Position numbers and translations under genes: made by a program | From: Candidatus Roizmanbacteria bacterium RIFCSPHIGHO2_12_FULL_37_23 | Lineage (GTDB): Bacteria > Patescibacteriota > Microgenomatia > UBA1406 > HO2-37-13b | Assembly: GCA_001788095.1 (NCBI GenBank) | Contig: MFZX01000026.1 | Location: 1-47,412, forward strand | DNA length: 47,412 bases | Reading direction: 5' to 3' | In this document: piece by piece, positions 9,544-18,245 of the stretch | Numbering within the stretch: the stretch's first letter is position 1 | How the letters are laid out: every line of letters starts with the position of its first letter | Notes under the pieces: model-generated | Database searches by the model: none | Told to the model about the DNA's origin: nothing | Seen by the model: only the letters and a program-made list of their open reading frames with translations

Positions 9544-10320
9544 CTATATGAAGGCAGAAAAAACTATTATAGCTAATATGATGCGATAAAGTCCAAATAG
9601 TGTAAGACTGTTACTCTGCAGATATTTAATAAACCATTTGATAAACATAAGAGCAGAGAAAAATGACACGAGAAATCCGGTTCCGACGATCATTATGTTT
9701 TGGTTTGTGAGTAGAGAATAGTCGGTTTTAACCAAGTCTAATATTGATGCACCAATGATGGTTGGCACTGCCAGTAGATAGGAATAGACTGCCCCTTCTG
9801 ATCGCTTATATTTCATAAACATCATACCCACAATAACCGCACCAGCCCTTGATACGCCTGGGATTATAGCAAATGACTGGATAAGTCCGGCAAAAAATGC
9901 GTCCTGATATGATAAATCCGTTAGAGATTTCTTTAACGTAAGCTTTTTCTTTTGAATTAACATTTCAATAACTATAAATAAAATACCTACAATAAAAAGC
10001 GAACTTGCGATGATCGTCATGGACTGAAAAAACACAGTTTTAATTATTTCCCGCATAAAAAAACCAATAATTGCTGTGGGAACAAAAGAAATGAGAACTT
10101 TAGGAATAAGATCTTGGTGTTTACGAATATAGTCAAAATAGAGAAATATTACTGCCAAGATCGCTCCTGATTGAATAAAAACTTCAAAAAAACTAATAAA
10201 TTCGGATTGGGGTAAACGGAGGAATGAGCTTGTGATTATAAGGTGAGCTGTTGATGATATAGGAAGAAATTCAGTAGCACCTTCTACAAGTCCAAGAATC
10301 ATTACCTCAATGATGGTCAT
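9544..10320 (-). CDS. uppP: Undecaprenyl-diphosphatase
   Basis: EGATEFLPISSTAHLI and PGVSRAG motifs. Confidence 0.95.
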   Translation of the reverse strand: MTIIEVMILGLVEGATEFLPISSTAHLIITSSFLRLPQSEFISFFEVFIQSGAILAVIFLYFDYIRKHQDLIPKVLISFVPTAIIGFFMREIIKTVFFQSMTIIASSLFIVGILFIVIEMLIQKKKLTLKKSLTDLSYQDAFFAGLIQSFAIIPGVSRAGAVIVGMMFMKYKRSEGAVYSYLLAVPTIIGASILDLVKTDYSLLTNQNIMIVGTGFLVSFFSALMFIKWFIKYLQSNSLTLFGLYRIILAIIVFSAFI

Positions 10321-10326
10321 AGGAAC

Positions 10327-10336
10327 ATTATATAAT
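10327..10336. promoter_or_regulatory. Palindromic ATTATATAAT giving overlapping divergent TATAAT -10 boxes for uppP(-) and the GT4 gene(+)
   Basis: TATAAT-N6-ATG (10320,-) and TATAAT-N7-ATG (10344,+). Confidence 0.7.
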
Positions 10337-10343
10337 ACATAGC

Positions 10344-11468
10344 ATGAAGATGGCCTTAGTTCATGATCATTTACTTGAATTCGGTGGTGCCGAACGCGTC
10401 TTTTTTGCTTTAAAACATATTTTCCCCGATTCTGATATTTATACTGCTGCTTATAACAATAACATGTTAAAAAAGCATGTTCCCGAAAGTGCGAACTGGA
10501 AAATTAATTCATCATGGGCATCGCGAATTCCTTTTTTTTCAAAACTCTATTCGCCGCTCCGATTCCTCACTCCATGGATATGGGAGTCGTTTGATCTAAC
10601 TGACTATGATGTTGTTATTTCTTCCTCAGGTTGGTTTATGTCAAAAGGTGTCATCACAAAAGACCAAACACTTCATGTATGCTATCTTCATCATCAGCCC
10701 AGATATTTATACTATTATGAAACCGCTGTCGAGTGGCAGAAATATTTCCCCGTAAAAATTTATGCCCATTTTATTAATCATTTTTTAAGAATTTGGGATT
10801 TCCAATCGAGCCAACGACCAGATTACTTTATCGCAAATTCACATGAAACAAAGAAGCGTATTCAGAAATTCTATCGCCGCGATTCAGAAGTTATATACCC
10901 GCCTGTAGATATACCCAAAGATGAAGTTTTTAAGATGCAGAAATTTGAAAAACGAGATTATTATGTCACGTTATCACGATTATCTAAGACAAAGAATATT
11001 GATGTACTTATCAAAACAGCCAACGAACTTAAGATTAAACTTAAAATCGTTGGGGTGGGAAGGGATGAAGAATATCTACGTAGTCTTGCAGGAGATTCAA
11101 TAGAATTTCTCGGGCGTGTATCCGATGAAAAGTTTGGTTCGTTATACCAAGGATCTAAAGCGTTTCTTTTTGCAAGCGTTGATGAAGAATTTGGAATCGC
11201 GCCTGTAGAAGCAATGGGATATGGCGTTCCAGTTATAGCATACGCATCAGGAGGTCTTAAAGAGACAGTAAAAGACGGGTATAACGGATATTTGTATAAC
11301 AAATTACACAAGCGATATCTTATTGAGAAAATTAAGGAGTTAGAATTACTTTCAAATGAAGATTATATGAACATGGCAAAAAACGCTCGGAAGGAAGCTG
11401 AAAAATATTCTTATAAAAATTTTGAGAAAAATATTAAAAAATTCATCAATACCTACAATCATTCATAG
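10344..11468 (+). CDS. Glycosyltransferase family 4 (GT-B)
   Basis: HDHLLEFGGAERVF, SRLSKTKNIDVLI, EEFGIAPVEAMGYGVPVIAYASGGLKETV. Confidence 0.92.
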   Translation: MKMALVHDHLLEFGGAERVFFALKHIFPDSDIYTAAYNNNMLKKHVPESANWKINSSWASRIPFFSKLYSPLRFLTPWIWESFDLTDYDVVISSSGWFMSKGVITKDQTLHVCYLHHQPRYLYYYETAVEWQKYFPVKIYAHFINHFLRIWDFQSSQRPDYFIANSHETKKRIQKFYRRDSEVIYPPVDIPKDEVFKMQKFEKRDYYVTLSRLSKTKNIDVLIKTANELKIKLKIVGVGRDEEYLRSLAGDSIEFLGRVSDEKFGSLYQGSKAFLFASVDEEFGIAPVEAMGYGVPVIAYASGGLKETVKDGYNGYLYNKLHKRYLIEKIKELELLSNEDYMNMAKNARKEAEKYSYKNFEKNIKKFINTYNHS

Positions 11469-15526: not shown

Positions 15527-16774
15527 TTAAATGAACGGTGCCCAGTCGGTTATAGGTGCGATATTAAAAAGCATGAAATTCCAAGCATACAGATAGATTG
15601 CCGGAAGAAGAAAAATCAATACGATTAGAAACTTCTTTGACGTAAAAAATTTCTCAAATGTAATCAGAGCAACCGGTAGTAGGGGAATCGAATATCGCGC
15701 GATATCACGATGTTGTACTGAAATAAGAGAAAGAAAGAAAACAAACGAGAAATAGAAAAAAACCCGTTTTGTTCTCATTGTCTCTTTTCCTATGATGTCA
15801 TTCTGGACTCGACCAAGGATCTCTTTGAGATTTCGAAATAAATTCGGAATGACAGATGAGATCTTATTATTTAAGCCGGAAAATGGCAAGAGCTCTATAA
15901 CGGTTAGTCCATACAACAAAAAAATAAATAGAATTTCTTCTAACCATGCTGTATCAACCCAGTTTTTCTGGAAATTAAATACTTTAAAAGGTGGAAAGAG
16001 AAGATGAAGATTGTCACCTGATTTAAAATATGCCCAAAAGTCACCATATTGGATTCCATACAAAACGAACACTAAGAGTAAACTCCCAGGAATAATAATT
16101 AACCACAACCATCGAAAATCAATTTTTCTATTCTGGATATAGTCATATAATATTCCTCCTAAATAGGCTATAAATAATAAGCCTGCTGGAGTTTTTGTTG
16201 TTATTGCCAATCCTCCTAATAAACCTGCAAATAAATACCTTTTTTTCACAAAAAAGTATATTGACATAAGTATAAAAAGAACAAACATCGGCTCAGGACT
16301 ACCTACTGATCGTGTTACAAAGAATCGTGGAGTAATAAACATAAAAACACTTGTTAGTAAGAGGGGATTTCGTGAAAGTTTCAATGTGTTTACGAAATAG
16401 TAAAAAAACCAAAACAGCATTATTGAAAATATAAGAGTTGAAATGATAGTTGCCTTTGGAAATCCAAAAAGTGGAGCAAAAGCCCTGATAGTTAGTGGAT
16501 ACATTGGTAGGTGAGCTGCAAAATATTTTGTTTCGAGGCCAAGTGGGGCACCAGCAAGGATTTCATTTTTTGGATTGTATAAAGTTTTCGCAGGAATAAT
16601 ATACAGGGGTCCGTCCCAATGTTGTAAAACAGTTTGAAAACTTGTGTTTTTTGTATCAATGCCATAAAGATTATTTATCTTTAATATAAAAGGCATCCAA
16701 AGTAACAGAGTTGTGAATAATGTGAGCGCAGCAATTATGAAGTATGGATATAATTTAGTATATAATTGAGGCAT
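15527..16774 (-). CDS. Polytopic membrane GT-C (PMT/ArnT-like) protein carrying an in-frame palindromic element
   Basis: Multi-TM; contains SSVIPNLFRNLKEILGRVQNDI peptide encoded by repeat. Confidence 0.75.
   Translation of the reverse strand: MPQLYTKLYPYFIIAALTLFTTLLLWMPFILKINNLYGIDTKNTSFQTVLQHWDGPLYIIPAKTLYNPKNEILAGAPLGLETKYFAAHLPMYPLTIRAFAPLFGFPKATIISTLIFSIMLFWFFYYFVNTLKLSRNPLLLTSVFMFITPRFFVTRSVGSPEPMFVLFILMSIYFFVKKRYLFAGLLGGLAITTKTPAGLLFIAYLGGILYDYIQNRKIDFRWLWLIIIPGSLLLVFVLYGIQYGDFWAYFKSGDNLHLLFPPFKVFNFQKNWVDTAWLEEILFIFLLYGLTVIELLPFSGLNNKISSVIPNLFRNLKEILGRVQNDIIGKETMRTKRVFFYFSFVFFLSLISVQHRDIARYSIPLLPVALITFEKFFTSKKFLIVLIFLLPAIYLYAWNFMLFNIAPITDWAPFI
15796..15854. repeat. 59-nt palindromic element TGTCATTC…GAATGACA inside the 15527-16774 CDS
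   Basis: 8-bp terminal inverted repeats, inner GATCTC/GAGAT hairpin. Confidence 0.8.
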
Positions 16775-16786
16775 GAATCTAGTATA
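16761..16786. promoter_or_regulatory. Symmetrical divergent promoters: TATAAT(16761-16766,+)-N6-ATG 16773 and TATACT(16786-16781,-)-N6-ATG 16774
   Basis: Start codons overlap in CATG (16772-16775). Confidence 0.65.
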
Positions 16787-18245
16787 TCACATCTTTACAA
16801 AGCTCAAAACTTGGTCGCAGGATCCATTTAACAGAATTTTCATATTAATTTTATTATTTGGAATACTTTTGAGATTTTACCAGCTTGAAGGTTTTGTTAC
16901 GTTTCTTGGAGATCAGGGGAGAGATGCGATTATTTTAAAAAGGATCGTTACTTTTGAACATTTTCCTGCTATCGGGGCCCCGTCGTCAGTCGGTCAAGTC
17001 TTTCTTGGTCCCTTTTATTATTATTTCATTGCTCCCTGGCTTTTCTTCTCAGGATTTAATCCAATTGGACCTGCTATTGGTGTAGCATTTTTTTCATCAA
17101 TATTTCTCGTAATAGCTTATGTGGCAATTACAGAATTATTTAATAAAAAAGTAGCTCTTGTTTCAGTATTTCTACTAGCATTTTCAGAGGTTCTTATTAA
17201 TTTTTCGAGATTTTCCTGGAACCCTAACCTTTTACCCCTTGCATCGTTTCTACTATTTTATGTTTTAGTTAAAGGATTAAAAGATCATGATGTGAAAAAA
17301 TTTGTAATTTCTGGGGCACTTTTTTCAATCTCAATACAATTACATTATGTATCTCTAGCTTTAACTATGCCAATAGTGCTCGTTTTGATACATTACTTAT
17401 ATGTTAATAGGAAACGAACATCAAAAAACTTGATCCCAATTTTCGCAATGGGAGTATCGTTTTTTATTTTATCGCTCCCACTGTTAGTTTTTGATCTACG
17501 TCACAGTTTTCTTAATTCAAAAAATTTTATAACACTTTTCACAGATTCGAAAAGTATTGCAGGATCGGGGTTTCAGGAAATATTCAATACTTTTACTGCT
17601 CTTAATGTGTTTGCTTTTAGACAGAATTTTCATGCTTTTTTTTCTCTCCTGCTCTTGATTCTTCTGATTTTATCGATGATTTTCACATGGAAACAAAAGA
17701 GACAACTTTCTTTACTGATTCTATTTTTTCTGATTGGATTATTAATCACCTCTTTTTACACAGGTAGAAAAATTCCACATTATTTTGGAGCCCTATATTC
17801 TTACTATTACATCATCATCGCATATTTCGTTACACAGATTTTTTGGAATAAGAAACTTGGAATATTTTTAGTAATGTTTTTGATTGGATTTATTTTTATG
17901 AACATTCAAGGATATAGTTTTCTGTTTAACCATCCTAATAACCAAATACAAAAAGCACAAGAAGTAGCTCGCCTGATAGATCAAAACATAAGCATAAATA
18001 GGTATCAAGTTACCAGCCTTCCTCATCAATACAGCGACAGTACATATCGTTATTTTCTTGAAATTTGGAAAAAGCGTCCTATTGAAAAGGATAGTTTAGA
18101 AAAGGCTGAGGAATTATTTGTTGTTTGCGAAGACGAATGTACACCAATTGGTGATCCTCAATGGGATATAGCATATTTCGCTCCTCGAGAAATTATAGGG
18201 ACGTGGGATGTGGCGAATGTTAAACTATATAAGTTAATAAGATAG
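16773..18245 (+). CDS. Polytopic GT-C/PMT-like glycosyltransferase
   Basis: Multi-TM, N-terminal FLGDQGRDAIILKRI acidic loop typical of GT-C. Confidence 0.75.
   Translation: MNLVYHIFTKLKTWSQDPFNRIFILILLFGILLRFYQLEGFVTFLGDQGRDAIILKRIVTFEHFPAIGAPSSVGQVFLGPFYYYFIAPWLFFSGFNPIGPAIGVAFFSSIFLVIAYVAITELFNKKVALVSVFLLAFSEVLINFSRFSWNPNLLPLASFLLFYVLVKGLKDHDVKKFVISGALFSISIQLHYVSLALTMPIVLVLIHYLYVNRKRTSKNLIPIFAMGVSFFILSLPLLVFDLRHSFLNSKNFITLFTDSKSIAGSGFQEIFNTFTALNVFAFRQNFHAFFSLLLLILLILSMIFTWKQKRQLSLLILFFLIGLLITSFYTGRKIPHYFGALYSYYYIIIAYFVTQIFWNKKLGIFLVMFLIGFIFMNIQGYSFLFNHPNNQIQKAQEVARLIDQNISINRYQVTSLPHQYSDSTYRYFLEIWKKRPIEKDSLEKAEELFVVCEDECTPIGDPQWDIAYFAPREIIGTWDVANVKLYKLIR

Follow-up and report, generated by a model that had tools for sequence, protein, structure and literature searches.

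How are two genes transcribed when they point away from each other and nothing lies between them? The window analysed here (the whole stretch of 47,412 nucleotides) contains such a pair. A reading made from the letters alone (the sequence-only reading) had placed the start codons of both genes in a single CATG, with the -10 element of each gene inside the other, and had proposed that, if both genes are leaderless, the arrangement is a possible transcriptional toggle between two GT-C glycosyltransferases. The CATG at 16772-16775 does supply both start codons, and the coordinates given for it are correct to the base. The junction and its two genes comprise the following features:

15527..16774, minus strand: minus gene, an open reading frame of 415 aa, PMT_2-type GT-C glycosyltransferase (Pfam PF13231, 31 bits), with matches in 36 of 38 genomes
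16773..18245, plus strand: plus gene, an open reading frame of 490 aa, PMT_2-type GT-C glycosyltransferase (Pfam PF13231, 44.9 bits), with matches in 38 of 38 genomes, paralogues included
16772..16775, no strand: CATG, overlapping starts of both genes, a 2-nt 5' overlap in codon phase 123:213
16761..16766, plus strand: TATAAT, predicted -10 element 6 nt upstream of the plus-gene ATG and inside codons 3-5 of the minus gene
16781..16789, minus strand: TGATATACT, predicted extended -10 element 6 nt upstream of the minus-gene ATG and inside the first codons of the plus gene
16767..16769, plus strand: in-frame TGA closing the plus frame directly upstream of its ATG, read from the sequence
16787..16789, minus strand: stop codon TGA, in frame ahead of the minus-gene ATG and closing that frame, doubling as the TGN of the extended -10

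Along the plus strand TATAAT is followed by TGAGGC and ATG; along the minus strand TATACT (16786-16781) is followed by AGATTC and ATG. Each hexamer thus sits exactly 6 nt from its own ATG (12 nt upstream of the A when counted from the first T), and the minus-gene element carries in addition an extended TGN whose TGA is that frame's own upstream stop. As had been claimed, an intergenic region is absent, and the sequence with its open reading frames makes each predicted promoter coding sequence of its neighbour. Both starts are firm, given the in-frame upstream TGA stops and the lack of any other ATG, GTG or TTG within about 20 codons of either one. Neither start has a usable Shine-Dalgarno element: the minus spacer AGATTC contains none, and the GAGG before the plus gene lies just 1 nt from the ATG, which is too close. 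A -35/-10 consensus scan around the junction gave no excess over shuffled sequence and reported neither promoter, and neither has a good -35. Note that the two hexamers are not improbable at this junction alone (p = 0.16 and 0.21 when codons are recoded synonymously given the amino acids and codon usage), so that the weight of evidence has to come from relatives.

The spacing has a precedent in published leaderless bacterial genes, where TANNNT lies about 12 nt upstream of the start codon (PMC3160421). In the 667 kb of the approximately 1.09 Mb genome that were taken as stretches, with 477 open reading frames of at least 150 aa read from their first ATG, TANNNT stands exactly 6 nt before that ATG in 90 genes, versus about 22 at neighbouring spacers, and TA[TAC]AAT occurs at the 6-nt spacer 39 times against an expectation of about 2-3. 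The same TANNNT peak recurs in G018, a genome from another family of the order (40 of 232 genes), and neither there nor in the 667 kb does Shine-Dalgarno show a clear or comparable peak. This strong leaderless signature was seen in stretches L074-L113 of the genome itself and L114-L128 of G018. With TANNNT modal at 6 nt before the ATG, leaderless transcription appears to be ordinary in this genome. The -10 spacing of both genes equals the genome-wide peak and matches the published geometry, and leaderless initiation, as predicted earlier, is the expected reading for both, with transcription probably starting at or next to the start codons. In several relatives 8-13 nt separate the plus-gene -10 from its ATG and an AAGG-like stretch is present; there the plus mRNA may have a very short leader rather than being strictly leaderless.

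The leaderless TA-led genes of Actinobacteria and Deinococcus-Thermus (PMC3160421, PMC12340547, PMC3898074) show the same genome-wide pattern, namely a TANNNT whose first T lies 12 nt upstream of the start codon and little Shine-Dalgarno signal, whereas the host here is a Roizmanbacteria-like genome. We place it as a Roizmanbacteria-like member of the Candidate Phyla Radiation from the labels of related contigs (Roizmanbacteria, Microgenomates or Patescibacteria). Our literature searches returned no report of the TANNNT leaderless signal in Candidate Phyla Radiation bacteria.

Both products exceed the curated PF13231 (PMT_2) cut-off of 26.1 bits, which supports the earlier assignment of the pair to the GT-C enzymes. 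PMT_2 is the only Pfam match in either product, with no DNA-binding family among the matches, and phmmer found no PDB chain related to either protein at E up to 0.1. The two enzymes may well be functionally linked. The minus gene also contains an in-frame insert of about 40 aa (residues 296-335; 15770-15889, minus strand) with VIPNLFRNLKEILGRVQNDI, absent from most orthologues; it resembles a dispersed-repeat peptide, yet has one short further DNA match only in the genome (28 nt on C27).

The pair itself is conserved. In nearly every genome of the order in which both orthologues lie on one contig they are divergently adjacent, giving 63 distinct junctions, a count that includes one locus from another order with a gap of more than 200 nt (L209). 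In other orders of the same class, a GT2 gene is usually the divergent neighbour of the minus gene instead, and the head-to-head GT-C pair is on that ground essentially specific to this order. In those other orders (L131, L132, L136, L137, L178-L210) the minus orthologue usually lies about 10-135 nt from a GT2 gene resembling polyprenyl-phosphate-sugar synthases, which suggests a module for lipid-linked sugar donors.

Within the order, 61 junctions have assignable starts. The 5' ends overlap by 2-53 nt in 47 of them, 13 are gapped (15-49 nt; L016 and L043 are counted here, although each has an upstream ATG that would give an overlap), and one shows an implausible overlap of 122 nt. The commonest overlap lengths are 11 nt (16 junctions), 14 nt (15), 2 nt (6) and 29 nt (4), and every overlap falls in a single antisense phase, codon positions 123 facing 213. 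Parsimony on a tree of both proteins makes overlap the ancestral condition and requires 8 changes; each of 500 shuffles needed more. The 11-nt class is the most telling. Its shared ATGCGNCGCAT reads M-R-R in both genes; positions 4, 5, 7 and 8 are fixed in 15 of its 16 loci, and every base occurs at the N, where alone a change is synonymous in both frames (C in 7, T in 6, A in 2 and G in 1). This confinement of variation to the doubly synonymous position is strong evidence that both overlapping starts are translated.

Are the embedded promoters conserved as well? Upstream of the minus ATG the extended -10 TGNTANAAT is found in 47 of 60 junctions, comprising 37 of 47 overlapping and 10 of 13 gapped ones, where shuffling leads one to expect 0.5 and 0.1, respectively. 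At most gapped junctions the called plus gene does not include TGNTANAAT, which means that the plus protein does not account for its conservation there. At overlapping junctions, synonymous recoding of the plus gene reproduces the element with a median p of 0.034 (74% of loci below 0.1), or 0.045 when spacing is fixed (62% of loci below 0.05), bearing in mind that the loci are related and these per-locus tests therefore not independent. Where it lies inside the plus gene, the minus-gene -10 is conserved more strongly than the encoded residues demand. On the plus side a -10 of some form, mostly TAAAAT, is present at 43 of 47 overlapping junctions, and recoding gives median p values of 0.44 and 0.66, that is, no constraint beyond the residues of the minus protein. 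The sequence-only reading had named preservation of synonymous positions within both hexamers as a check; this holds for the minus-gene element, and no such signal appears for the plus-gene one.

For conservation of the layout, named as a further check, the outcome is mixed: relatives throughout the order share the head-to-head overlap and the two -10 hexamers, but the exact CATG with two 6-nt spacers is not found in the closest relatives (G003, G004 and G005). The overlap is least stable in the genome's own clade, with 2 nt here and in G003 and gaps of 46, 35 and 24 nt in G004, G005 and G028. G003, a member of the same family (L012), keeps CATG and TATAAT-N6-ATG and has TGATATACT about 21 nt from its minus ATG. 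In this sample, CATG with both -10 elements at 6 nt is particular to this genome.

Taken together, we favour reading the junction as a compact head-to-head pair served by two leaderless, sigma70-type promoters that face each other, with both enzymes expressed under some interference; we put the probability of this at roughly 70%. Each -10 would lie within the opening codons of its partner, and transcription in either direction would begin at or beside the shared start codons. The predicted -10 elements (16761-16766 and 16781-16786) flank the starts at 16773/16774 from the outside, placing the predicted transcription starts 1-2 nt apart, and the polymerase footprints overlap. Given this geometry and the known footprint of RNA polymerase, two polymerases could not bind together, and mutually exclusive binding, as proposed earlier, is likely from the arrangement of the predicted sites. 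Only one promoter would be occupied at a time and each transcript would cross the -10 of the other, so that initiation would alternate and both GT-C enzymes would be made with some mutual interference rather than being switched.

Does the overlap have a function of its own? The alternative that survives best holds that it does not. A leaderless gene needs a promoter of only about 12 nt, so that its start codon can drift cheaply into a neighbour, and the resulting overlap would persist since undoing it breaks a promoter or a start. This account shares the anatomy of the preferred reading and is compatible with it, differing only in denying the overlap a selected role; we consider it about evenly balanced between true and false. 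Leaderless promoters are common, divergent gaps are short genome-wide (median 98 nt here and 58 nt in G018), overlap length varies widely, and gapped relatives have the same minus-gene -10 outside the plus gene, as though the plus start had moved across it. Against this, parsimony makes overlap ancestral on the tree, as described above, and credible overlap is rare at the other conserved divergent pairs of these compact genomes: of the pairs conserved among three genomes, nearly all those whose starts are credible are separated by about 20-130 nt.

Apparent overlaps at other pairs mostly come from the choice of the first ATG. Three such cases in this genome and G018 look, by eye, like artefacts of this kind: the TpiA-like protein at L113 probably begins further downstream, at MKFVIGNWK, the UbiA-like protein at L119 has a later Met that fits better, and the PIN-like open reading frame at L094 also contains a later Met. 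Even for the pair under study, the value of -191 obtained in G021 is a first-ATG artefact, the credible value being -29 (L022).

Two other divergent pairs deserve mention in their own right. Genes 136/137 of G018 (L120, 16493-16518) and their G021 counterparts show apparent overlaps of 26-29 nt (-26 and -29) at candidate starts; the apparent counterpart in the present genome (L105) has a 19-nt gap. At 10320-10344 of the window a UppP/BacA-like gene and a glycosyltransferase-like gene are separated by 21-23 nt, a gap kept in G018 and G021, and the TATAAT-like element within it is a candidate back-to-back leaderless bidirectional promoter.

A stronger proposition than the preferred reading is that selection across the order interlocks the two leaderless promoters, a single polymerase-sized site fixing the ratio of the two GT-C enzymes without a regulator. 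We regard this as unlikely. The overlap most probably began as tight packing of leaderless genes, and selection for ratio control may or may not act on it today.

Could one of the genes simply start downstream, leaving no overlap at all? All divergent overlaps longer than 60 bp in the databases proved to be misannotations (PMC2478687), and first-ATG calls produce several false overlaps in this very genome. We nevertheless hold this to be very improbable, as neither side offers another start codon within the distance given above, the 11-nt class varies only where both frames permit it, and the -10 spacing at this junction fits the present ATGs.

Least probable of all is the toggle, in which polymerase exclusion would make expression of the two GT-C genes mutually exclusive and so create alternative states of cell-surface glycosylation: predicted starts 1-2 nt apart, with each promoter inside the transcribed region of the other, and a tight layout kept across the order speak for it, but a toggle needs feedback, in its genetic form a product that represses the other's promoter, and here neither PMT_2 product is a regulator that could sustain two stable states, 13 of 60 junctions lack the overlap, the exact geometry is not found in the closest relatives, and bidirectional promoters of E. 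coli operate at a basal activity too low for measurable polymerase competition, strong activation of one side being needed before it shows, and interference lowers noise (PMC12825309).

The preferred arrangement of alternating, mutually interfering promoters also differs from those E. coli promoters in layout. In the pseudo-symmetric bidirectional promoters transcripts leave a shared core without crossing each other's -10 (PMC12825309), whereas here the -10 elements lie outside the start sites and polymerases would first run toward each other's promoter. Closer in geometry are face-to-face divergent promoters, in which two polymerase sites overlap. The argE-argCBH and bioA-bioB regions are of this type. 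They lie, as do the EcoRV and CfrBI promoters, in control regions with a dedicated regulator, in contrast to the present pair, which lies in partner coding sequence and has no regulator among its products. At the EcoRV and CfrBI restriction-modification loci, divergent promoters likewise have overlapping polymerase sites, so that binding is mutually exclusive (PMC5333194). Compared with known 5'-5' overlapping genes, the phase is unsurprising, 123:213 being the commonest for divergent overlaps; such overlaps are, however, strongly under-represented in prokaryotes (PMC2174442), and the present one is conserved throughout an order, with predicted promoters embedded in both reading frames.

Overlapping divergent promoters and leaderless genes are thus known in themselves; what is new is a doubly coded 5' overlap maintained across an order, with at least one embedded promoter under constraint. 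This matters because 5'-5' overlaps between divergent genes are seldom seen, and the long examples studied earlier turned out to be errors of annotation, whereas here the evidence indicates translation of both frames and conservation of one promoter inside a coding region. The finding also suggests that leaderless transcription is widespread in an uncultured branch of the Candidate Phyla Radiation. With an overlap that recurs across the order at roughly 35-58% protein identity, the pair is a clean natural example in which to ask whether selection maintains interlocked promoters or simply tolerates them.
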